Assembly: GCF_003253995.1 (NCBI RefSeq)
Contig: NZ_QKZL01000026.1
Coordinates: 1 to 40,032 of the forward strand
Direction: 5' to 3'
DNA: 40,032 nucleotides
Source of the DNA: Palleronia aestuarii
Lineage (GTDB): Bacteria > Pseudomonadota > Alphaproteobacteria > Rhodobacterales > Rhodobacteraceae
A model generated the notes under the pieces. The model ran no database searches, had not been told where the DNA came from, and worked only from the letters and a program-made list of their open reading frames with translations. Positions 1 through 40,032 of the stretch are shown here, in pieces (position 1 is the first letter of the stretch; each line of letters begins with the position of its first letter). Made by a program: the position numbers and the translations under genes.

Positions 1-409
1 GTTCCATGGCGGCGGATGATCTGTATCCCAGCGCCGAGTGGAGGCGGTGAGTAGTGTACCAGCCCTCGGTCCAGGCGAACAGGTCGCGCCTCGCCTCGTC
101 CCTGGTGGCGTAGCTCTGGTGGTGGACGCGCTCGGTCTTCAGAGACCCAAAGAAGCTCTCCATGGGGGCGTTGTCGAGGCAATCGCCCTTGCGGCTCATC
201 GACGGCGTGATCTTCGCGGCCTCCAGGGCCTTGCGGTAGTCCTCGCAGGCGTACTGGATACCGCGGTCGGTGTGGCAAATCAGGCCGGGGGCCGGCCTCT
301 GTCGCCTCACCGCCATCTCGAGCGCCTCGACGGCGATCTCGGCGTGCAGCGTCTCGCGCATGGACCATCCCACGATCTTGCGCGTGTGCAAGTCGAGGAC
401 CGCGGCCAG

Positions 410-450
410 GAGTGTACGGGGACCGTGGCCCCGGTGGGGCCGCGACAGCC
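410..450. repeat. Palindromic insertion in IS3 orfB sharing a 24-nt core with one in IS481
   Basis: Between the codons for RTGEGW and LLAAVLD lie about 40 extra bases with arms GGCCCC/GGGGCC around a 3-nt loop. The 24 bases at 422-445 are the exact reverse complement of 8984-9007 in the unrelated IS481 transposase. The insertion keeps the already shifted frame, so its length is a multiple of three. Confidence 0.8.
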
Positions 451-484
451 CCGGGAACCAGCCTTCGCCGGTGCGCACGTAGAG

Positions 485-511
485 CCTGCCCCCGCGGAGG
501 CGGGGGCCAGG
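485..511. repeat. GC-rich palindrome inserted in IS3 orfB
   Basis: GCCCCCGC (488-495) and GCGGGGGC (500-507) are perfect inverted arms around GGAG. The pairing extends outward with CCTG/CCAGG and one bulge. It falls between the codons for GDL and YVRTGEGW, where the integrase normally has only a Thr codon, and it shifts the frame. Confidence 0.75.
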
Positions 512-889
512 TCGCCGAGCCAAATCTGGTTCGGGGCCGCTGCGGTGAAGTCCCGTCCGAGCCTGTTCGGCGCGATGGGATACCCATGCCGGCTGTCAGT
601 TGTCCGCACGCGGCGCGGCAAGGCGGCCAGCCCACGCAGCCCGGCCTGCCGCATCAGGCGGGCCACGCGATTGCGCCCGACGGCTCGGCCCAGGCCACGT
701 GGAACGGCATGCACACGCGGGACCCCATACGCGCCGCCGCTGTAGGCATGGATTCGACGGATCTCTTCGAGCAGAGATCGGTTGGCCTTCACCCGTGCGC
801 TCTCGGGGCGGGAGCGCCATGCGTCGTAGCCGCTCACGGACACCCCCATCACGCGGCACATCACCGAGATCGGCCAGAGGTTCTTGTGC

Positions 890-1306
890 TCATCCACGAA
901 CCCGAACTTCATCGGGTGGCCGCCCCGAAGAGCGAGCCATGTGCGGTCGCCATGGTCGCGCCACGGGTCCGAGCGACCGTGGCGACGGTGCAAGCACACT
1001 GGCGAGCGCGGCCTTTCGCAAGATGTCGCGCTCCGTCTGGAGACGGGTGTTCTCGCGCTTGAGGCGCGCATTCTCGGCCGCCAGATCGGCGGGAGACAGA
1101 CCTCCGGCGGCCGCCCTCGCGCCCGCGCGCGTCGTCGGGGCCATACCCGGCTCGCCGTAGCGCGTGATCCAGCGCCGCAGCACCGTCTCGTGCACGTCCA
1201 GTTCCTTGGCCACCGAGATGATCGTCAGACCGCTCGTGCGGACCCTCTCGACCGCCTCGCGCTTGAACGCCTCGGGAAACTCCCGCCGCTTCCGTTGCCC
1301 CGTCAT
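890..1306 (-). pseudogene. IS3-family orfA (transposase helix-turn-helix subunit) with altered C-terminus
   Basis: The protein begins MTGQRKRREFPEAFKREAVE and carries the usual IS3 orfA helix-turn-helix (residues about 10-45) and a leucine-zipper-like stretch ENARLKRENTRLQTERDILR. The family normally ends soon after ERDILKKAAL. Here the end is replaced by an arginine-rich tail, because a 74-bp addition (69-bp palindrome plus a 5-bp duplication) lies at 930-1008. Removing 74 bp restores a frame that would end KAALFGAATR, the expected short tail. The insertion also separates orfA from orfB in the zone where programmed frameshifting normally fuses them. Confidence 0.8.
930..1008. repeat. 69-bp imperfect palindrome inserted in IS3 orfA, flanked by 5-bp duplication GAGCG
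   Basis: The direct repeats GAGCG at 930-934 and 1004-1008 flank 69 bp whose two halves are inverted copies. GTCGCCATGGTCGCGC on one arm pairs with GTCGCCACGGTCGCTC on the other, and the outer ends begin GCCATGTG and GCCAGTGTG. Excising 74 bp (insert plus one repeat) restores the expected orfA frame, which supports a true insertion with target duplication. Confidence 0.75.
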
Positions 1307-1384
1307 CAGATGCTCCTTCCAGGTCCGAAGACCTTAGCAGAGGCCTCCACCGAACCGGGGGAAGATCAGCAGCGGCCTCGGGTA

Positions 1385-1600
1385 AAACGATCCGGCACCG
1401 TCTGAACCGTGGCGGCGACAGGGAGGTCAACAGCGCGCCGCACATCGTCGCCGTCTCCCGAATGCGCCTCCACCAGCGGACGAAGGACCACGTGGCCAAA
1501 CGCACGGCTATGGAGCATTCGAAGCTCGAAACCATCCGGATGCTCGAACGCTACATCGCGCGCGAAGTCTTCGGGATCATTCGAGCTCAACGAACGGAGA
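1385..1600 (+). pseudogene. IS110-family transposase, C-terminal remnant
   Basis: Reading on the plus strand gives TIRHRLNRGGDREVNSAPHI, then a Met-Arg and a stretch ending HVAKRTAMEHSKLETIRMLE and RYIAREVFGIIRAQ. This matches the usual C-terminus of IS110 transposases (AL.RGGDR.AN.AL..I, then K.EI.RCLKRY.AREVF). Nothing upstream of about 1385 belongs to the gene, and downstream the frame runs into unrelated sequence. An N-terminal IS110 fragment lies at the other end of the window. Confidence 0.75.
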
Positions 1601-1654
1601 TCGACCGACCACACGCAGTCATCGCTCGACACACAGAAGGGCGGCCAGAGCAGC

Positions 1655-2017
1655 CAGATCACCAGCATCGACTTCACGTAGCTTCTGCTGGACGCCAAAG
1701 TCGTCATCAGCATGGACGCCAAGGGGCCGGCGTATACGCCGACGGAGCGACAATGTCTTCGTCGAGCGGCTCTGGCGGACGGTGAGATACGAGGAAATCT
1801 ACCTACGAGCTTATGCCAGCGTCTAAGAGGCGCGAGACTGGATCGGGCGCTACCTCGGCTTCTGCAACGGCACGCGCCCCCATTCGTCGCTCGGCAGGGC
1901 GACACCCGACAGTGCCTATCTCAACCAGCCGGCGCCGATCATGGCTGCAGCGTAACAAGGGCGGATAGCCACTTCAGGAAAGGCCAAACGCTAATCAAAC
2001 AAACCGAGCCACCGCTC
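1655..2017 (+). pseudogene. Second IS3-family orfB, C-terminal remnant with right end
   Basis: The codons for TSIDFT, LLLDAKVVISMDAKG, DNVFVERLWRTVRYEEIYLR, IGRYLGFCNGTRPHSSLG and LNQPAPIMAAA appear in order, interrupted by a TAG at about 1679, a TAA at about 1826 and frame shifts. This is the typical C-terminal third of an IS3-type DDE transposase. The expected right-end tail (GGCGGATAGCCAC, then AAACCGAGCCACC) follows to about 2012. A 14-bp perfect palindrome sits where the family reads KGAWRDN. Confidence 0.8.
1728..1741. repeat. 14-bp perfect palindrome inserted in the IS3 remnant
   Basis: CGGCGTATACGCCG is its own reverse complement. It separates the codons for MDAKG from those for RDNVFVERL, normally joined by about two codons, so it looks like a short palindromic insertion of the same style as those in the other transposases of this window. 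Confidence 0.6.
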
Positions 2018-2046
2018 ACGGGCGCGCCTGGAGCTGAACTATTGCT

Positions 2047-2115
2047 GCCGCCAAGGGTGAGTTGCTTCGGCAGGCTACGCAGATCAAAAACATATTGGTG
2101 CCTTACGTGGAGTGA
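2047..2115 (+). pseudogene. C-terminal vestige of an aldehyde dehydrogenase (ALDH16-like)
   Basis: The frame ending at the TGA 2113-2115 reads AAKGELLRQATQIKNILVPYVE and stop. The intact two-domain aldehyde dehydrogenase at 23024-25375 ends GRGFLHRATQVKNIWVPYGE and stop: the last 19 residues share 11 identities, including ATQ-KNI-VPY-E, and the stop falls at the same place. Upstream of 2047 an in-frame stop and then the IS3 remnant replace the rest of the gene. The vestige lies 48 bp before the PfkB kinase start, where an upstream operon partner would end. I infer that an ALDH gene headed or preceded this operon and was deleted by IS insertion. Confidence 0.7.
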
Positions 2116-2163
2116 GGTACGGCACTCCTATCGCGGGAGGACGGAGCGCATGGGGGGACGGGC

Positions 2164-3096
2164 ATGGCAGCGCAGATGGGCATCGCGATTCTCGGGATAT
2201 ATGTGGCCGACACCGCTTATCTCGCAGAGCGCATGCCGCAGGTTGGAGAGACCATCTCTGGTTCGGGCTTTTCACTGGGACCGGGCGGGAAGGGCTCGAA
2301 CCAAGCAGTGGCCGCAGGCCGTGCCGGAGCAAGGGTCAGCTTTATCTCCAAAATAGGCGACGATACTTTCGGCAAAATGGCGCTGGAGATCTACGCTGAG
2401 GCCGGTGTCACACCCAAGGTAGAGGTTATGGCAGACATGCCGTCGGGCGCAGCTTTCATCTTCGTCAACGACCAGACGGGTGAGAATGCTATTATCGTCT
2501 ATCCGGGTGCGGCGGGTACGATAACTTCAGCCGATGTCGAGGAGCATCGGGCGGTGATCGAAAGCTCAAAAGTCTTCGTTACACAGCTGGAACAGCCCCC
2601 CGATGCGGCCCTCACGGCGCTGACCCTGGCCCGGTCCGCCGGGGTCACAACGGTCTTTAATCCGGCACCTGCCAACCCGTTCGACGCCGCCTGCTACGGC
2701 CAGACTGATTACTTCGTTCCGAACGAGAGCGAGGCCGCGGCAATCGTCGGCTTCAAGATCGACACGGAGGAAGACGCTCGCCGTGCCGGGGATCTCTTCC
2801 TGGAACGCGGCGTCGGGACGGCTATAATTACGCTTGGTGCGAAAGGGGTCTATCTCCACGGACCCGGCATCAGCACCCGCGTCCCCGCGATGGCCAACGC
2901 TCCCGTCATAGACACCGCCGGTGCGGGTGACGCCTTCATCGGTGGGTTCGCCGCCGCGCTGTCCGAAGGGCAGGGGGTCGAGCAGGCGGTCCGCATGGGA
3001 TGCGCCACCGCGGGCATCGCCGTGACGCGACGCGGCACAGCGCCGGCTATGCCAGCCCGGGCTGAGATCGACGCAATGATGGGGCAGGGCGCATGA
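2164..3096 (+). CDS. PfkB-family sugar kinase (ribokinase / deoxyribokinase-like)
   Basis: A 310-residue cytoplasmic kinase of ribokinase type, which would phosphorylate a pentose or similar sugar at the terminal hydroxyl with ATP. PfkB signature 1 is GGKGSNQAVAAGRAGA (from about residue 41), and signature 2 is DTAGAGDAFIGG (250-261) with the catalytic Asp at 256. The anion-hole GAGD is intact. The start has a G-rich site (GGGGGA) 5-10 bases upstream; the next Met (residue 5) is an alternative. Its stop overlaps the next gene by 4 nt, so it is translationally coupled to an ABC sugar transporter. A vestige of an aldehyde dehydrogenase lies just upstream, so deoxyribokinase (DeoK-like) is a reasonable guess. 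Ribokinase is equally compatible with the sequence. Confidence 0.88.
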   Translation: MAAQMGIAILGIYVADTAYLAERMPQVGETISGSGFSLGPGGKGSNQAVAAGRAGARVSFISKIGDDTFGKMALEIYAEAGVTPKVEVMADMPSGAAFIFVNDQTGENAIIVYPGAAGTITSADVEEHRAVIESSKVFVTQLEQPPDAALTALTLARSAGVTTVFNPAPANPFDAACYGQTDYFVPNESEAAAIVGFKIDTEEDARRAGDLFLERGVGTAIITLGAKGVYLHGPGISTRVPAMANAPVIDTAGAGDAFIGGFAAALSEGQGVEQAVRMGCATAGIAVTRRGTAPAMPARAEIDAMMGQGA

Positions 3097-3968
3097 CCCG
3101 CGACGATCCGGTCAAGCACCTTTTCCTTTGGCCGGCTTTCCTCGTGGTGCTCGCGGTGGCGATCTTCCCGCTTATATACTCGCTGGCCAACAGCTTCATG
3201 AGCCTGCGCCTCGTGCCGCCCATTCCCGCACGCTTCGTCGGCACCAGCAACTACGCGGATCTTCTAAGCAATCCACGTTTCTGGCAGACGGTCAGAACGA
3301 CGTCGCTCATTGCCTTTGTATCAGTGGCGCTGCAATTCATGATCGGCTTCGGCATTGCGCTGGCGCTGGCCAAGCGGGTGAAGGGCGTGGAGTTCTTCCG
3401 CGTCACGTTCCTGATGCCGATGCTGGTGGCGCCGGTCGCGGTCGCCCTAGTGGCACGACAGCTTCTCAATCCCACCATGGGCCCGCTGAACGAGCTCGCG
3501 ACCTTCTTCGGATTTCCGAACTTGCCCTATTTGACCGAAGCGAAATGGGCGCTCGGGTCCTTGATTGCGGTGGAGATCTGGCAGTGGACGCCCTTCGTAA
3601 TCCTGCTGCTCCTGGCAGGTCTGCAGGGCTTGCCCGACGATGTCTACGAGGCCGCGGAACTCGAGAATGCCAGTCCGTGGCAGCAATTCTGGGGCATCAC
3701 ATTCCCGATGATGCTGCCGATCTCCGCGGCGGTAATCTTCATCCGCATCGTCGAGAGCTTCAAGATCATCGACACCGTCTTTGTCATGACCGGGGGCGGG
3801 CCCGGCATCGCGACGGAGACGTTGACGCTCTTCGCGTATCAGGAGGGATTCAAGAAGTTCAACCTTGGCTATACCTCGGCGCTGTCCTTCCTGTTCCTCG
3901 CGGTCGTGCTGATTCTAAGCCTCGTCTACCTCGCATTGTTGAAGCCGTGGCTGGAAAAGTACAAATGA
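3093..3968 (+). CDS. CUT1 ABC sugar transporter permease (MalF/UgpA type)
   Basis: A 291-residue inner-membrane permease with six predicted hydrophobic segments: about 10-30, 70-95, 108-128, 155-180, 205-230 and 262-285. The EAA loop, which contacts the ATPase, reads YEAAELENASPWQQFWGITFP (the consensus EAA---G replaced by EAA---N), followed by a PMMLP turn. It forms a heterodimer with the next gene product. The ATG overlaps the kinase stop (ATGA), and its own stop overlaps the next start in the same way. The substrate is not evident from the sequence. Confidence 0.92.
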   Translation: MTRDDPVKHLFLWPAFLVVLAVAIFPLIYSLANSFMSLRLVPPIPARFVGTSNYADLLSNPRFWQTVRTTSLIAFVSVALQFMIGFGIALALAKRVKGVEFFRVTFLMPMLVAPVAVALVARQLLNPTMGPLNELATFFGFPNLPYLTEAKWALGSLIAVEIWQWTPFVILLLLAGLQGLPDDVYEAAELENASPWQQFWGITFPMMLPISAAVIFIRIVESFKIIDTVFVMTGGGPGIATETLTLFAYQEGFKKFNLGYTSALSFLFLAVVLILSLVYLALLKPWLEKYK

Positions 3969-4993
3969 GCGTCCGTAACCTGCGCGGACCGCGGGCCTGG
4001 ATCGCCTTCGCTCTTTGCTGCGTGTGGTTCGCCTTCACCGTCTTCCCGCTCTATTGGGTGGCCATCACCTCGCTGAAGACACCACCCGACGTCGTGGGTG
4101 GCCCGACCTACCTGCCGTTCGTCGACTTCCAGCCGACATTGAAGGCGTGGCGCGAGCTCTTCTCCGGCATAAGGGGAGAATTTTACTCCAATTTCTGGTC
4201 TTCGGCGATCGTCGCAGTCTCGTCGTCGTTCTTTGCGACGCTCCTCGGGGCGATGGCGGCCTATGCGCTCGTCCGCTTCCCGTTTCGGGTGAAACTGCTC
4301 TCGGGCGTGCTCTTCTTCGTGCTCGCGATGGGAGGATTCCTCGCGGGACGCTACTGGCTGGGCCTGCCGCCGGCGACCGCGTCGATCCTGTCCTTCTGCG
4401 GCGCCCTCGCGCTCTCGGTCTTCGCGAACCGCCTTGCGCTGCCGGGCAAGGTCATGATGAACGACGACATCGTCTTCTGGTTCGTCAGCCAGCGCCTGTT
4501 CCCGCCCATCGTCGTGGCCTTCGCGCTGTTCCTGCTCTACACCGAGATCGGCAAGCTCGGCTTCAAGCTCACCGATACCTATCTCGGGCTGACGCTCGCC
4601 TACGTCGCTTTCTCGCTGCCCATCGTGGTCTGGCTAATGCGCGATTTCATCTCGGCGCTCCCCCTGGAGGTCGAGGAGGCCGCTCTCGTCGACAACGTTC
4701 CCTACTGGCGGATCTTCTTCGAGATCGTCCTGCCGATGTGCCGCCCCGGATTGATCGCGACCTTCGTGATCACCCTGGCCTTCACCTGGAACGAGTTCCT
4801 CTTCGCGCTCTTCCTGACGAATTCGGAATGGCAGACCCTGCCGGTCCTGATCGCCGGTCAGAACAGCCAGAGGGGCGACGAGTGGTGGGCGATCTCCGCC
4901 GCCGCGCTGGTCGCGATCGTGCCGATGATCGTCGTCGCGGGGCTGCTCGGCCGTCTGATGCGGTCCGGCCTGCTCAGCGGGGCCGTGAAATGA
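3965..4993 (+). CDS. CUT1 ABC sugar transporter permease (MalG type) with an extra membrane region
   Basis: The partner permease, 342 residues from the ATG that overlaps the previous stop. Segments are at about 13-35, 78-100 and 108-130, followed by about 30 further hydrophobic residues (SILSFCGALALSVFANRLAL) before SQRLFPPIVV, the point where MalG-type permeases usually continue directly. The extra part makes it about 60 residues longer than the usual 280. The EAA loop reads VEEAALVDNVPYWRIFFEIV, followed by LPMCRPG. The reading frame upstream of 3965 is open but belongs to a shadow of the first permease. Confidence 0.9.
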   Translation: MSVRNLRGPRAWIAFALCCVWFAFTVFPLYWVAITSLKTPPDVVGGPTYLPFVDFQPTLKAWRELFSGIRGEFYSNFWSSAIVAVSSSFFATLLGAMAAYALVRFPFRVKLLSGVLFFVLAMGGFLAGRYWLGLPPATASILSFCGALALSVFANRLALPGKVMMNDDIVFWFVSQRLFPPIVVAFALFLLYTEIGKLGFKLTDTYLGLTLAYVAFSLPIVVWLMRDFISALPLEVEEAALVDNVPYWRIFFEIVLPMCRPGLIATFVITLAFTWNEFLFALFLTNSEWQTLPVLIAGQNSQRGDEWWAISAAALVAIVPMIVVAGLLGRLMRSGLLSGAVK

Positions 4994-5003
4994 CTTTTTC
5001 GAA

Positions 5004-5019
5004 GCCCCGATAAAGGGGC
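5004..5019 (+). other. Small hairpin before the binding-protein gene
   Basis: GCCCC (5004-5008) and GGGGC (5015-5019) pair around GATAAA in the 40-bp gap between permease and binding protein. There is no T-run, so it is not a classical terminator; it may affect mRNA stability. Confidence 0.4.
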
Positions 5020-5040
5020 GCAATGGGAGGAAGGACCTTG

Positions 5041-6483
5041 TTGAACCGACTGAAACTGTCTGCGGCCGTGCTGGCTCTGAGCACGGGGGCGGCGTTCGCG
5101 TGCGATCCCGATTTCAGTGGCGTGGAGATCACCGCCACAACCCAGACCGGCCCCTATATCGCCTCGGCGCTGACGCTCGCGGGCGAAGCATGGGCGGAGA
5201 AGACCTGTGGAACCGTCAAGGTGGTCGAGTTCCCGTGGTCAGAACTCTATCCCAAGATCGTCACCACGCTGGCCTCGGGGGATACGTCCTTCGACGTGAT
5301 CGCCTTCGCCCCCGCCTGGGCGCCGGATTTCACGCCGTTCCTCGCCGAAATGCCCGCCGAGTTCCAGGAGGGCGAGGCGTGGGAGGATATCGCGCCCGTC
5401 TACCGCGAACAGCTCATGGTCTGGAACGACCAGGTGCTTTCACAGACGATGGACGGCGATGTCCACACCTACAGCTACCGTATCGATCTTTTCGAGGACG
5501 AGGCGAACAAGACCGCCTTCCGGGAGAAGTACGGCTATGATCTCGCCGTGCCGGAGACCTGGACGCAGTATCTCGACATCGCCGAATTCTTCCAGAACGA
5601 CGTCGATGGCGTCTACGGCACGGCCGAGGCCTTCCGCCGGGGCGGCCAGCAATTCTGGTTCCTGTTCAGCCATGTCGCGGCCTATGCGAGCCATCCGGAC
5701 CTGCCGGGCTCGATGTTCTTCGATCCCGAGACGATGGACGCACAGGTCAACAATCCGGCCTGGGTCCGCGGTCTCGAGGAATATATCCGCGCGTCCGAGC
5801 TCGCGCCGCCCTCGGCCCTGAATTTCTCCTTCGGCGAGGTCAACGCCGCCTTCGCGGGCGGGCAGGTTGCTGAGTCCATCGGCTGGGGCGACACCGGGGT
5901 GATCGCGGCCGATCCGAACCAGTCCACCGTGGCGGGCAAAGTGGGATCGGCCAAACTGCCGTCCTCCACCGAGGTCTACAACTACAAGACAGGCGAGTGG
6001 GACACGTTCGACGAACCGGTCGACACCTCCTTCATGGCCTTCGGCGGGTGGCAGGCTGCGGTGCCGCAATCCTCGCGGAACCAGGAGGCCGCATGGGACT
6101 TCATCGAACTGCTCTCCAGTCCCGAGATCTCTGGCCAAGCGACGGTGACGGGGGGCACCGGCGTCAATCCCTACCGGATCTCCCACACTACCGACATGGA
6201 GCGCTGGTCGAGCATCTTTAGCGAGCGCGAGGCCAAGGAATACCTCGATACGCAGCGCGAGGCGGTCACGGCGGAAAACGTCGCACTCGACATGCGCCTG
6301 CCGGGGTATTTCTCCTATACCGAGCTTCTTGAGATCGAACTCAGCCGCGCGCTCGCCGGTGAGGTGAGCCCGCAGGAGGCGCTCGACACCGTGGCGGACG
6401 GCTGGAACGAGCTAACTGACGAGTTCGGCCGCGACACCCAACTCGCAGCCTACCGCTCCTCGATGGGCCTGCCCGCCCAGTGA
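5041..6483 (+). CDS. Extracellular sugar-binding protein of the CUT1 transporter
   Basis: A periplasmic solute-binding protein of about 480 residues (SBP family 1). The start is ambiguous. An ATG at 5023 opens the frame, but its next bases, GGAGGAAGG, form a near-perfect ribosome site for the TTG codons at 5038 and 5041, which start a clean signal peptide ([20 protein letters not shown], cut before CDPDF). I prefer a TTG start. The mature protein opens with [12 protein letters not shown] and has the family regions [18 protein letters not shown] and [12 protein letters not shown]. The two early cysteines (in ACDPD and KTCGT) could form a disulfide. A 9-bp-stem hairpin follows the stop. The gene sits between the permeases and the ATPase of the same transporter. 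Confidence 0.9.
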
Positions 6484-6488
6484 CCAGA

Positions 6489-6520
6489 CGGGTCGGCGCC
6501 ATTCCGGGCCAGCCGACCCG
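6489..6520 (+). other. Intercistronic hairpin after the binding-protein gene
   Basis: CGGGTCGGC (6489-6497) pairs with GCCGACCCG (6512-6520), a perfect 9-bp stem with no T-run, right behind the binding-protein stop. Such stems commonly protect the upstream message, giving more binding protein than ATPase. That role is inference. Confidence 0.65.
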
Positions 6521-6544
6521 ATCTCCCTGAGAGAGACATCCGCG

Positions 6545-7642
6545 ATGGCAAACATCACGCTAACGGGCGTAACCAAATTCTACGAAGCGGTGCAGGTGAT
6601 CCCGCCGATGGATCTCCATATCGAGGATGGGGAATTTGTCGTGCTCGTCGGCCCCTCGGGCTGCGGCAAGTCGACCACCCTGCGCATGATCGCCGGTCTC
6701 GAGGCCGCGACGGGCGGACAGATGCATATAGGCGAGCGTGAGGTGACCCACCTGCGCCCGGGCTTGCGCAACTGCGCGATGGTCTTCCAGAGCTATGCGC
6801 TTTATCCCCACATGTCGGTGCGCGAAAACATCGGCTACGGCATGAAGGTGCGCGGCGTGCCGAAGACGGAGGCGCGAACGTCGATAGAGAACGCGGCCAG
6901 AATACTGAACTTGACCGAGTATCTAGACCGCAAGCCCGCCGCGCTCTCCGGCGGGCAGCGCCAGCGGGTCGCGATCGGGCGCGCCATCGTGCGCGATCCG
7001 GACGTTTTCCTCTTCGACGAGCCTCTATCGAACCTCGATGCCAAACTGCGCGTCGAGATGCGCGTCGAGATTAAGCAGCTGCATCGCCGGTTGAAGACCA
7101 CGATGGTCTACGTTACCCATGACCAAGTCGAGGCGATGACAATGGCCGATCGCGTGGTCGTCCTGCGCAAGGGCGTCATCGAACAGGCGGCCGATCCCAT
7201 AACCCTATACGAACGACCTGCGAATGCCTTCGTCGCGGAGTTCATCGGTGCACCCAGCATGAACATGCTCGATGGCCGGATCGAGCGGAGCGACACCGGA
7301 CTGCGCTTCGCGGGGGCCACGGGATTGGCCTTCGAAATACCGCCCGAACACACCGTCGCACTGTCGCGTTCGGTCGGCGAAGACTGCATCCTCGGCATCC
7401 GTCCCGAACATACCGTCGAAGCGGAGGGCGGCATCGGCGTCAACGTAGAGGTCGTGGACATCGAACCGCTCGGTCCGTACACTCTGCTGATCGGGCTCAT
7501 GGGCGACCGTAAGTTCACCGGGCAGACCCGCGCCGATACGAAGACCCGGCCCGGCGACCGCGTGCCAATTCAGTTCGACCCCCAAAAGCTGCACTTCTTC
7601 CGCGCCGGGGACGGCGCCGCCATCCGGGAGGATACCGCATGA
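6545..7642 (+). CDS. CUT1 ABC transporter ATP-binding protein (UgpC/MalK type)
   Basis: A 365-residue ATPase that energises the two permeases upstream. Walker A is GPSGCGKST (36-44), the Q-loop is VFQSYALYP, the signature is LSGGQRQR (134-141), Walker B is [12 protein letters not shown], and the H-loop is [10 protein letters not shown]. After the ATPase domain, a MalK-like TOBE region begins at about 235 ([12 protein letters not shown]) and contains LGIRPEHT and a late [20 protein letters not shown] stretch. The length is normal for UgpC/MalK. Its stop overlaps the next start by 4 nt. Confidence 0.95.
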
Positions 7643-8043
7643 CCGCACCCACCGATCGGATCATCGTTCTCGAGGCCTTCGAGCACGTCCACCCGGACCG
7701 TTGCACCGATTACGAGGCCGCGAGCCAAGCCATCGACGACCTCGCGCGCGAGACCGAGCCCGGAATGCTGGTTCACGCCCTGACGGTTCATGCCCGCGCC
7801 GACGACCGCGTAACCTACCGCTGGCTCGAGGTCTTCACCGACGCCGCCGCTCTTGAGGCGCATTTCGCCAGCCTGCACGTCCAGGCGCATGGGGCGAAGC
7901 TCAATGACGGGATCCTGCTCTCCCCGGTCGAGATTCTCCTCTACGTTGACTGGTCGGAGGCGGAGAAGGTTGAGATCAACACGAGGCTCGGAGGCGCGCT
8001 AAAATTCGCCGAAGTTCGCTCGGGGTTCTACCGGCCGGAATAA
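7639..8043 (+). CDS. Small ABM-fold protein (putative antibiotic-biosynthesis-monooxygenase-like)
   Basis: A 134-residue protein coupled by ATGA overlap to the transporter ATPase. Residues about 6-95 fit the dimeric ferredoxin-like ABM fold: [20 protein letters not shown], then [28 protein letters not shown] and HVQAHGAKL, the last two being typical of YgiN-like proteins. The C-terminal 40 residues ([17 protein letters not shown]) are not part of the common domain. No catalytic residue can be assigned. As the last gene of a sugar-uptake operon it may act on an aldehyde or keto-sugar intermediate, but that is a guess. A probable terminator follows. Confidence 0.75.
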
Positions 8044-8056
8044 TAATGGAGACAAT

Positions 8057-8086
8057 GGGCATTTGATTGCGCCCTGGGTGTTTTTT
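8057..8086 (+). terminator. Probable rho-independent terminator of the CUT1 operon
   Basis: GGGC (8057-8060) and GCCC (8071-8074) form a short stem, followed within a few bases by TGGGTG and six T (8081-8086). The stem is weak but the position, just after the last gene and before the IS481 element, is right. Confidence 0.45.
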
Positions 8087-8427
8087 AATCGCCCCTGCCA
8101 TGTGATCTACCTGCTAGATGTTTAATCCCACGGTTTGATGGTGCGATCTTTTCGGTGCAATGTAAGGAAGCCCTACGGGACAGGTTGGTCACGGGAGCGC
8201 CACGACCACGCACGCCGTCAGAGCGGCAATACAATCCGACCGCAAGCTTCGCTCTCGCAGCTGAGCGGGGAGCTGGGGATCAATCCGAAGACGGTCGCGA
8301 AGTGGCGGAAGCGGGCGACAGGCGAGGACCTGAAGACCGGTCCGAGGGAGCCGCGCTCGACGGTTCTGACCGAAACAGAGGAGGCGATGATCGTCGCGTT
8401 CCGACGGCACACGCTGTTGCCGCTGGA

Positions 8428-8475
8428 GTTCGAGCGTTTAGCAAACGATCCGGGGGATCGTTTGTAGCGAAGAAC
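8428..8475. repeat. 48-bp palindromic insertion in IS481 transposase (a)
   Basis: CAAACGATCC (8442-8451) and GGATCGTTTG (8455-8464) are perfect 10-bp arms around GGG. Imperfect outer arms run from GTTCGAGCG to CGAAGAAC. It lies between the codons for HTLLPL and LYALQP, where the family has only about two residues, and it introduces a TAG stop. Confidence 0.85.
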
Positions 8476-8545
8476 GGTCTCTATGCCCTGCAGCCCACGA
8501 TCCCGCACCTGACGCGCTCGGCACTGCACCGATGCCTGCAACGAT

Positions 8546-8583
8546 GAGCCATTGCGCGCCATCGGGTCGAGCGCGATGGCGAA
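8546..8583. repeat. Palindromic insertion in IS481 transposase (b)
   Basis: GCCATTGCGC (8548-8557) pairs with GCGCGATGGC (8571-8580) with one wobble. It lies between LHRCLQR and RLPDVEG, where the family reads only HGIS, and brings an in-frame TGA at once. Confidence 0.75.
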
Positions 8584-8658
8584 TGCATCTTCCGCCTGCC
8601 GGACGTCGAAGGCGATAAACTAAAGCGGCAGCGCTTCAAGCGCTACCCGATCGGGTTC

Positions 8659-8698
8659 GGCGGGACATCGCGGGTCCATCCACGATGTCTTCTCCGCC
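8659..8698. repeat. Palindromic insertion in IS481 transposase (c)
   Basis: GGCGGGACATCGCGG on the left matches the reverse complement of CCACGATGTC-TTCT-CCGCC on the right, allowing a short bulge. It separates the codons for RYPIGF from HIDIAKVQ, which are nearly adjacent in the family. Confidence 0.78.
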
Positions 8699-8970
8699 TC
8701 ACTCCACATCGATATCGCCAAAGTGCAGACCACCGAGGGCAAGCTCTATCTCTTCGTGGGCATCGACCGAACCAGCAAGTTCGCGGTCACCCAGCTCGTT
8801 GAGAAGGCCGACAGGCGCACCGCCTGGGAGTTCCTGCAGCACCTGCTGGAGGCATTCGGCGGGTCGCCTCATCCTATCAGGTCCACATGATCTCGACCGA
8901 CAATGGCATCCAGTTCGCCGAACAGCCGAGGAACCGGAACACGATCATCTCCCGACCGATACGCTTCGAC

Positions 8971-9016
8971 GCTTCCAGGGCTTTCGCGGCCCCACCGGGG
9001 CCACGGTTCCTTCCAG
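8971..9016. repeat. Palindromic insertion in IS481 transposase (d), core shared with IS3 orfB
   Basis: Arms GGCCCC and GGGGCC around ACC lie at its centre, and CTTCCAG is repeated directly at both edges (8972-8978 and 9010-9016). The 24 bases at 8984-9007 equal the reverse complement of 422-445. It falls between the codons for IRFD and CEANEIE, where the family has only Met-Ile. Confidence 0.85.
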
Positions 9017-9113
9017 CTCTGTGAAGCCAACGAGATCGAGCGCCGGCTGACAAAACCGGATCACCCCTGGACCAATGGGCAGGTCGAGCGGATGAACCGC
9101 ACCATCAAGGACG

Positions 9114-9155
9114 GTGAGGCCCAAAGCCGACCCGGGGGATCGGCGACGGCTGAAC
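9114..9155. repeat. Palindromic insertion in IS481 transposase (e)
   Basis: GCCGA (9126-9130) and TCGGC (9140-9144) are the inner arms, extended outward by GCC/GGC. About 42 extra bases separate the codons for RTIKD from VKRYHY, which are normally about two residues apart. Confidence 0.72.
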
Positions 9156-39736: not shown

Positions 39737-40032
39737 ATGTCCAAGCCTGTGCCGACCCGCTACCGTACCCTGAACTGGTCATCCTACAACGCGCCGCTGC
39801 GTGAGCGTGGGTCGCTGACCGTCTGGCTCGACCCCGTTACACCATGGCATGCGGCGGCGTCCGGCAAGCGCGGGGCGCAGCCGGTCTACAGCGACGCCGC
39901 CATCCAGGCATGCCTGACGATGAAGGGTGAAGGGCGTCCCGGAAACAGGCCGGTGGCCTGTTTCAGCCCTGAACGGGCGGAGCCCCGGGCCTGTTCGGCC
40001 TGCCGTTGCGCCAGACGACCGGCTTCGTGGCG
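39737..40032 (+). pseudogene. IS5-family transposase, N-terminal part, disrupted by a palindromic insertion
   Basis: It reads MSKPVPTRYRTLNWSSYNAP, LRERGSLTVWLD, then QPVYSDAAIQACLTMK, as IS5/IS903-like transposases do. At that point the family continues VLFGLPLRQTTGFVASL. Here about 65 extra bases (39926-39990) separate LTMK from the codons for LFGLPLRQTTGFVA, which follow in a shifted frame to the window end. The insertion carries a REP-like hairpin. Beyond the window the gene may go on. Confidence 0.8.
39926..39990. repeat. REP-like palindromic insertion in IS5 transposase
   Basis: AAACAGGCC (39943-39951) and GGCCTGTTT (39955-39963) are perfect 9-bp arms around GGT, nested within AGGGC (39931-39935) / GCCCT (39966-39970). 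The whole block of about 65 bases is absent from the normal gene and shifts its frame. Confidence 0.82.

Follow-up and report, generated by a model that had tools for sequence, protein, structure and literature searches.

The 40,032-nucleotide window analysed here (contig C26 of the 4.5 Mb genome of Palleronia aestuarii) carries short palindromic blocks inside its transposase genes, which represent four dispersed families, here called D1, D2, E and F. These are mostly 43-51 bp hairpins with nested stems around a 3-base loop, present across Rhodobacterales, with D2 containing the D1 core. In diverged alleles of genes from insertion sequences (IS) and phages, the same exact sites are re-occupied by these elements, in a homing-like manner and without any coding capacity. 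They are associated with the genes of mobile DNA and not with transposases alone. Our tentative proposal, which we put slightly short of an even chance, is that each block is a non-autonomous mini-element, about 48 bp long, which spreads by recombination between alleles meeting in one cell.

Recurrent occupation of exact sites in diverged alleles

In a phage tape-measure gene, we compared 93 loci, namely, the best 80 of 533 relatives by protein similarity and 13 chosen by hand, nine of these because they carry F here. Of the 85 loci in which the site was readable, 72 contain a word of 6 bp, chiefly GGGATC, GGGATT or GGCATC. Another 11, including the nine F loci, contain precisely 48 bp, and the remaining 2 contain 12 bp; because the nine F loci were added by choice and none of the 80 relatives contains F, these counts are no measure of the frequency of F. 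Among the best 80 relatives themselves, 7 loci were unreadable, the site holds 6 bp in 71, and the other 2 carry a palindrome that we denote X. This 48-bp palindrome (L371 and L395) differs from F, shares the GCCCCACTGGGGC centre with it, and lies at the same tape-measure site. The reading frame is open across the F insert, and the ratio of nonsynonymous to synonymous divergence (dN/dS) of the flanks is 0.03-0.31. F is identical at 49/49 bases in all nine loci; L210 and L320 are the same in sequence, and in the other pairs the upstream region has a dS of 0.22-0.98 and a dN of 0.01-0.18. The identity persists at dS 0.25-0.60 within one phage clade, and had the element drifted at the rate of synonymous sites, zero differences in 48 positions at dS 0.6 would have a probability of 8e-12.

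On a tree of the tape-measure flanks (65 loci, left after removal of one remote group and of rows that were short or identical), F requires 4 changes, 3 of them forced by well-supported branches, and a single clade is rejected by the approximately unbiased (AU) test (p-AU 8e-51). Palindrome X requires 2 changes, and a single clade is rejected as well (p-AU 5e-71); the AU groups were set by insert state, though a first tree had already been seen. Flank identity between the F-bearing clades is no higher than between empty alleles (11 pairs). Ordinary long-tract gene conversion, which we considered as a candidate, was set aside on the same 11 pairs, given that the flanks lack raised identity.

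In IS5, D1 occupies one base-exact site in two clades (a and b), each with an empty sister. Two changes are required, and one clade is rejected at p-AU 7e-62, in a test tree from which L046 and L057 were dropped and in which L225 and L226, with a D-like insert and another palindrome, respectively, at the same site, were scored as D-minus. IS5 copies that have diverged in their coding flanks to a dS of about 0.4-1.7 differ from one another at only 0-2 of 47 positions in D1. The locus L240, from the genus of the window, is identical to L058, from a plasmid of Palleronia sp. LCG004, over the compared part of IS5. At the start site of IS3 orfA, F is present in six aligned genomes and, by eye, in a seventh (L065); identity of orfA between the F-bearing genomes is 48-78%, and the outer stems of F differ.

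One IS5 copy in the P. aestuarii genome (L217, C7:182907-183837) consists of two open reading frames (ORFs) in one frame, with a TGA codon and the D1 insert between them; its empty relatives, by eye, are either fused (L219) or apparently require a frameshift at an A/G run. A translational bypass like that of T4 gene 60 was considered for IS5 and set aside because no matching take-off and landing codons were seen by eye.

Hairpin structure and mode of insertion

Nested stems with a 3-base loop are obtained on folding one example each of F, X, D1 and E. In the outer helix of F (24 sequences), 5 of 6 pairs are altered on both sides, with a covariation score of 0.214, compared with an average of 0.084 after shuffling (0/500 shuffles as high), and in the D1 helix, 3 of 10 pairs are altered on both sides, with 0.232 against 0.128 (again, 0/500). 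These shuffles leave the relatedness of the sequences in place; the inner stem of F and part of the 3' side of its outer stem are fixed by the search pattern, which leaves the outer stem as the sole informative part, and the D1 sequences are restricted to at most 3 mismatches by the search. D1 has GTTCGTCGGG at one end, a 10-bp stem and a 3-base loop, compared with stems of 8-9 bp and loops of 4-5 in CGTC-tagged REP/RPE; F has no CGTC end. A conserved GTAG end is present neither in F nor, by eye, at the ends of D1. The D2 end GGGGTGAG fits the GGGGWSAS motif. A wider core scan of genome contigs yielded at least 111 stretches, including chance matches in unrelated phyla, and there, by eye, the flank of D1 reads GAGGATCAGG..CCCGA and the ends of D2 read GTTCG..CTCACCCC. 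A search of Rfam gave no family at the gathering score.

Compared with empty homologues, the net gain is 35-46 bp (55 pairs), with a cluster at 39-46 bp and 43 (14 pairs), 42 (12) and 40 (9) as the most common values, and the target loses about 6 bp on insertion rather than being duplicated. A single locus, L063, is exceptional in that TTCATC flanks F on both sides. The net length modulo 3 across the 55 pairs, mostly from IS genes, is 0 in 22, 1 in 24 and 2 in 9, counts that include one site repeated many times and an alignment slack of about 1 bp. No general rule of frame preservation emerged, only 22/55 net lengths being divisible by 3. Many inserts disrupt transposase frames; in-frame inserts are found in the open tape-measure gene, in an annotated IS66 and in an annotated IS3 gene.

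Genes and replicons that carry the elements

The context calls given in this section were made partly by eye, and a few of the Pfam matches lie below the curated cut-off. An initial pattern for D proved overly stringent and matched only the P. aestuarii genome itself (1/295). With a 34-base D1 pattern and at most 3 mismatches, 38 matches were obtained in 394 genomes of the family, of which 36 were listed and 30 fetched; D1 is present in 19/394 genomes, with 0 for the controls. At 28 of the 30 fetched sites, D1 lies inside transposase genes, and 17 of the 22 D1 flanks run against Pfam contain a transposase, integrase-core or transposase helix-turn-helix (HTH) domain. The 28 transposase sites represent about 18 distinct gene-and-site combinations, as grouped by eye. 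If transposase genes are assumed to make up 10% of the genome, the probability of 28/30 is 4e-26 and that of 18/20 distinct gene-sites is 2e-16.

F was detected in 27/295 related genomes (controls, 0). Of the 30 places fetched, from 44 listed, 20 are in transposase genes, 3 are in genes of prophages and 7 are either intergenic or of unclear context, and 15 of the 28 F flanks run yielded a transposase-type, integrase-core or transposase-HTH domain in Pfam. For E, all 6 sites fetched, out of 20 places, are in transposase genes by eye, and one of these is the annotated IS66 with the in-frame insert. The IS hosts belong to unrelated families, IS3, IS5, IS21, IS66, IS110, IS256, IS481 and IS630. 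On plasmids, 10 loci were fetched from 29 listed D1 and F matches, and all 10 are in transposase genes by eye, with IS3, IS5, IS256, IS630 and IS1182-like hosts, one of them annotated as an IS3 transposase; the plasmid records that carry these elements are from Rhodobacterales. Orientation relative to the host gene varies. D2 is mostly found just past the stop codons of ordinary genes (by eye, among the matches listed) and also in IS5. At L109 and L118, D2 palindromes lie, by eye, within Y1 (RAYT-like) transposase genes.

In viral contigs, 52 F sites were found, one of which is in a transposase gene by eye. Across L290-L340, F is present at several fixed prophage places, with its own outer stem at each. 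The prophage places include two tape-measure sites, a position upstream of a DUF3489 gene and one in a DUF6441 gene, as assigned through Pfam searches with L192, L196, L209 and L210, and, by eye, one near a RuvC-like gene.

A sequence-only reading of the window had suggested a class of miniature palindromic elements that either prefers transposase genes or is tolerated only there. Such a class exists, in the form of the D1, D2, E and F families; among the loci fetched, D1 (28/30) and E (6/6) are almost confined to transposase genes, across many unrelated IS families. F (20/30) is found in prophage genes and intergenic DNA as well, and D2 is largely intergenic.

Inserts in the window

The inserts of the window and their host genes are as follows.

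410..457, minus strand: 48-bp palindrome of the F family, lying in frame within IS3 orfB; window positions 423-444 match the F core exactly
482..507, minus strand: 26-bp palindrome (GCCCCCGC/GCGGGGGC) in IS3 orfB, of a different make-up and shifting the frame
943..988 (approximate), minus strand: palindrome at the IS3 orfA/orfB junction, E-family by eye, with compensating changes in the arms
8428..8478, plus strand: D1-family palindrome in IS481, 51 bp against 7 bp in the own-genome copy L003
8543..8588 (ends approximate), plus strand: E-family palindrome in IS481, net +36 against L003
8970..9018, plus strand: F-family palindrome in IS481, net +43 against the empty homologue L248 from another genome
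9112..9154, plus strand: D1-like palindrome in IS481, net +37 against the own-genome copy L004
39924..39990, plus strand: D2-type palindrome in an IS5-family transposase; L105 and L163 are occupied at the same site, by eye
1..1320, minus strand: IS3-family transposase host gene (orfA 890-1306, orfB below), with PF01527 and PF13276
8128..9418, plus strand: IS481-family transposase host gene, split into several frames; its relative L248 matches rve
39739..40032, plus strand: first part of an IS5-family transposase host gene, truncated where the window ends and assigned by eye

That the main blocks are extra, as had been suspected from the window itself, is borne out by the empty copies of IS481: the blocks at 8428 and 8543 are missing from L003 and that at 9112 from L004, and the site at 8970 is empty in L248. 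Frame-breaking, the other property ascribed to them, applies to part of the blocks: the 482-507 insert shifts the frame and the IS481 gene is split, whereas the 410-457 block keeps the frame, providing 16 codons where the related IS3 element L253 reads 2 (LY). The blocks at 410 (IS3) and 8970 (IS481) belong to one sequence family, F, and the single IS481 copy carries four inserts from several families (D1, E, F and D1-like). The two IS481 pieces of the window have no Pfam match of their own. Genome G325 contains D1 at the IS481 site that matches 9112..9154 of the window.

Across the P. aestuarii genome, core D (AAACGATCCNGGGGATCGTTT, at most 3 mismatches) occurs at 16 places, with 0 for the reversed control, and core F occurs at 8 places exactly; core F matches with 2-3 mismatches were at the control level and were discarded. 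In this own-genome scan, which covered cores D and F, the sugar genes of the window yielded neither core, in agreement, as far as these two cores show, with the earlier impression that the sugar genes are free of such blocks. Another own-genome IS481 copy, L002 (C48), has an additional D-type block at a different site; L002 and L289, from a plasmid of Cereibacter sphaeroides, carry D-type palindromes at what appears to be one shared IS481 site (HPW^NGQVERM) in two organisms.

Possible mechanisms of spread

Homing introns and inteins provide the precedent of an identical element re-occupying its site in diverged alleles. The meeting of different alleles in one cell is shared by IS families and phages, and we therefore propose a recombination drive with hairpin-biased repair, by analogy with the GC clusters of yeast mitochondrial DNA; that the spread is by recombination is inferred. 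The element, nested stems around a 3-base loop, would substitute for about 6 bp of a preferred target and, once present in one allele, would be copied by recombination into empty alleles of the same gene sharing the cell, with repair retaining the hairpin-bearing strand. The meeting places could be multi-copy IS in one genome, as well as co-infecting phages and prophages, and damage to the transposase would be a side effect. Under this scheme, the bias to IS and phage genes would arise because copies of these genes meet in one cell; in a haploid genome, a single-copy gene seldom encounters another allele, and the drive would therefore operate mainly in mobile DNA. Passages of PMC3945230 describe phage recombinases as tolerating diverged DNA. 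It is possible, albeit on balance doubtful, that the elements constitute a new class, non-coding homing palindromes of bacteria and phages, driven through gene families whose alleles share a cell by hairpin-biased repair of recombination intermediates, and colonising mainly transposase and phage genes.

Several observations weigh against spread by recombination. The sequences compared revealed neither an intermediate nor a donor nor a recombination event, and the change counts on the trees do not separate gain from loss. RecA is inefficient on diverged DNA, which weakens the idea for IS, and a copied tract that ends a few bases from the insert would be unusual. The only hints of co-conversion are one flank base per side in IS5 and the presence of GCGGGC to the left of F in 9/9 alleles, compared with 24/72 empty ones (the two 12-bp loci were excluded from the flank counts); this bias could reflect either a target requirement or a very short copied tract. 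Furthermore, one fixed base inside D1 separates the two D1-bearing IS5 clades, and D1 shows 3-6 differences over 47 positions in L046 and L047, two remote IS5 copies. Some elements also lie outside the proposed meeting places: D1 at L256 and L265, and F at L192, L197, L201, L208, L209, L215 and perhaps L213, are outside IS and phage genes, and of the 5 D1 loci in viral contigs, 3 are in IS256 genes and 2 are outside transposase genes by eye.

The elements might instead be REP-like miniature transposons, moved in trans by Y1 transposases (RAYT/TIRYT) and surviving where they are harmless, in mobile and intergenic DNA. The covarying hairpin arms, the largely intergenic location of D2 by eye and the fit of its end to the GGGGWSAS of TIRYT repeats, as given in parts of PMC3733652, are all consistent with such an origin, which we nevertheless regard as unlikely. 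A Y1 match was found in 30/295 genomes of the family and 1/14 of the genus and none in P. aestuarii itself. The overlap with the elements is close to chance: Y1 matches coincide with F in 3 of its 27 genomes (2.7 expected) and with D1 in 2 of the 13 that carry it in the set (1.3 expected), small numbers at the level of whole genomes. Besides, tolerance alone predicts more intergenic than transposase copies, and D1 shows the opposite. Selection for function is a live rival, to which we assign a similarly low likelihood: F and D1 would be nucleotide-level sites for binding, RNA structure or recoding, held by selection in IS and phages. The unchanged F across dS 0.25-0.60 in one phage clade, the position of D1 in L217 between two same-frame ORFs with a single TGA between them, and the dN/dS of 0.06-0.34 in D1-bearing IS5 of clade a would fit this explanation. 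It is less easily reconciled with the 72/85 readable tape-measure alleles that lack the insert, the different palindrome X at the same site, the varying orientation relative to the gene and the dN/dS of 0.41-1.18 in clade b (one near-identical pair aside in each IS5 clade).

The values for clade b, together with the shifted frames in two of its copies and the presence of several inserts in multi-copy IS, agree with neutral build-up in dead IS copies, amplified by IS transposition. This scenario appears improbable given the roughly 18 gene-and-site combinations among the 28 D1 sites (by eye), the occupation of the same site outside a single clade in the tape-measure gene and in IS5, and the greater similarity of the elements compared with that of their hosts. 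The sequence-only reading had also raised the possibility of a process in which mobile DNA is inactivated through the addition of palindromes. Many transposase frames are indeed broken by inserts, and the IS481 copy of the window holds several families; conversely, identical exact sites are hit repeatedly, and inserts are in frame in open phage genes and in the annotated IS66 and IS3 genes. Because the tape-measure insert is in frame in an open gene with flanks under a dN/dS of 0.03-0.31, inactivation by a host process is highly improbable as a general explanation, the least probable of those considered here.

Comparison with known systems

If the elements indeed spread by recombination, bacterial selfish DNA can be far smaller than an IS, hairpins of 48 bases would shape the decay of transposases as well as phage genes, and a simple system would be at hand for studying biased repair of hairpin loops. 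For annotation, a warning follows that a number of split Rhodobacterales transposases are split by these elements. Our search of titles and the beginnings of abstracts, which lay outside most subscription journals and all preprints, found no report of palindromes that prefer transposase genes.

Conversion-based gene drive is usually tied to sexual or multi-copy genomes; in yeast mitochondria, a 46-bp GC cluster in var1 spreads by biased conversion. Mitochondrial double-hairpin and bypassing elements are likewise short mobile hairpins in or near genes; no sign of bypassing was seen here in IS5, where it was considered by eye only. Homing introns and inteins resemble the present elements in occupying one site across diverged alleles not united in a single clade, but homing elements encode an endonuclease, for which 48 bp leaves no space. 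A target-site duplication, as in miniature inverted-repeat transposable elements (MITEs), was not seen here, with the exception of the TTCATC on both sides of F at L063; about 6 bp are lost instead. REP of the GTAG type are extragenic, unlike D1 and E, with 28/30 and 6/6 sites inside transposase genes; D2 differs in this respect.

The yeast mitochondrial GC clusters (GC42) are described in parts of PMC4478555 as 42-nt palindromic, non-coding sequences with constrained stems, linked to homologous recombination. The palindromic non-coding stems are common to GC42 and the elements described here; according to the same parts of PMC4478555, GC42 are mitochondrial, mostly intergenic and target AG, whereas our elements are bacterial or phage-borne, intragenic, and replace about 6 bp. 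Compared with the account of REP/REPIN and TIRYT in sections of PMC3733652, the covarying hairpins are similar, as are the largely intergenic location and the GGGGWSAS-like end of D2, whereas D1, E and F are mainly intragenic, and D1 and F have no association with Y1. Those sections, which come closest to a report of a preference for transposase genes, mention for CGTC repeats only a few fortuitous associations with other transposase genes. RPE of Rickettsia, as covered in part in PMC3733652, are palindromic inserts within bacterial reading frames, like the elements of this study; RPE, however, lie in frame in host genes, whereas the Rhodobacterales elements occur chiefly in the genes of IS and phages, are frequently out of frame, and recur at exact sites.

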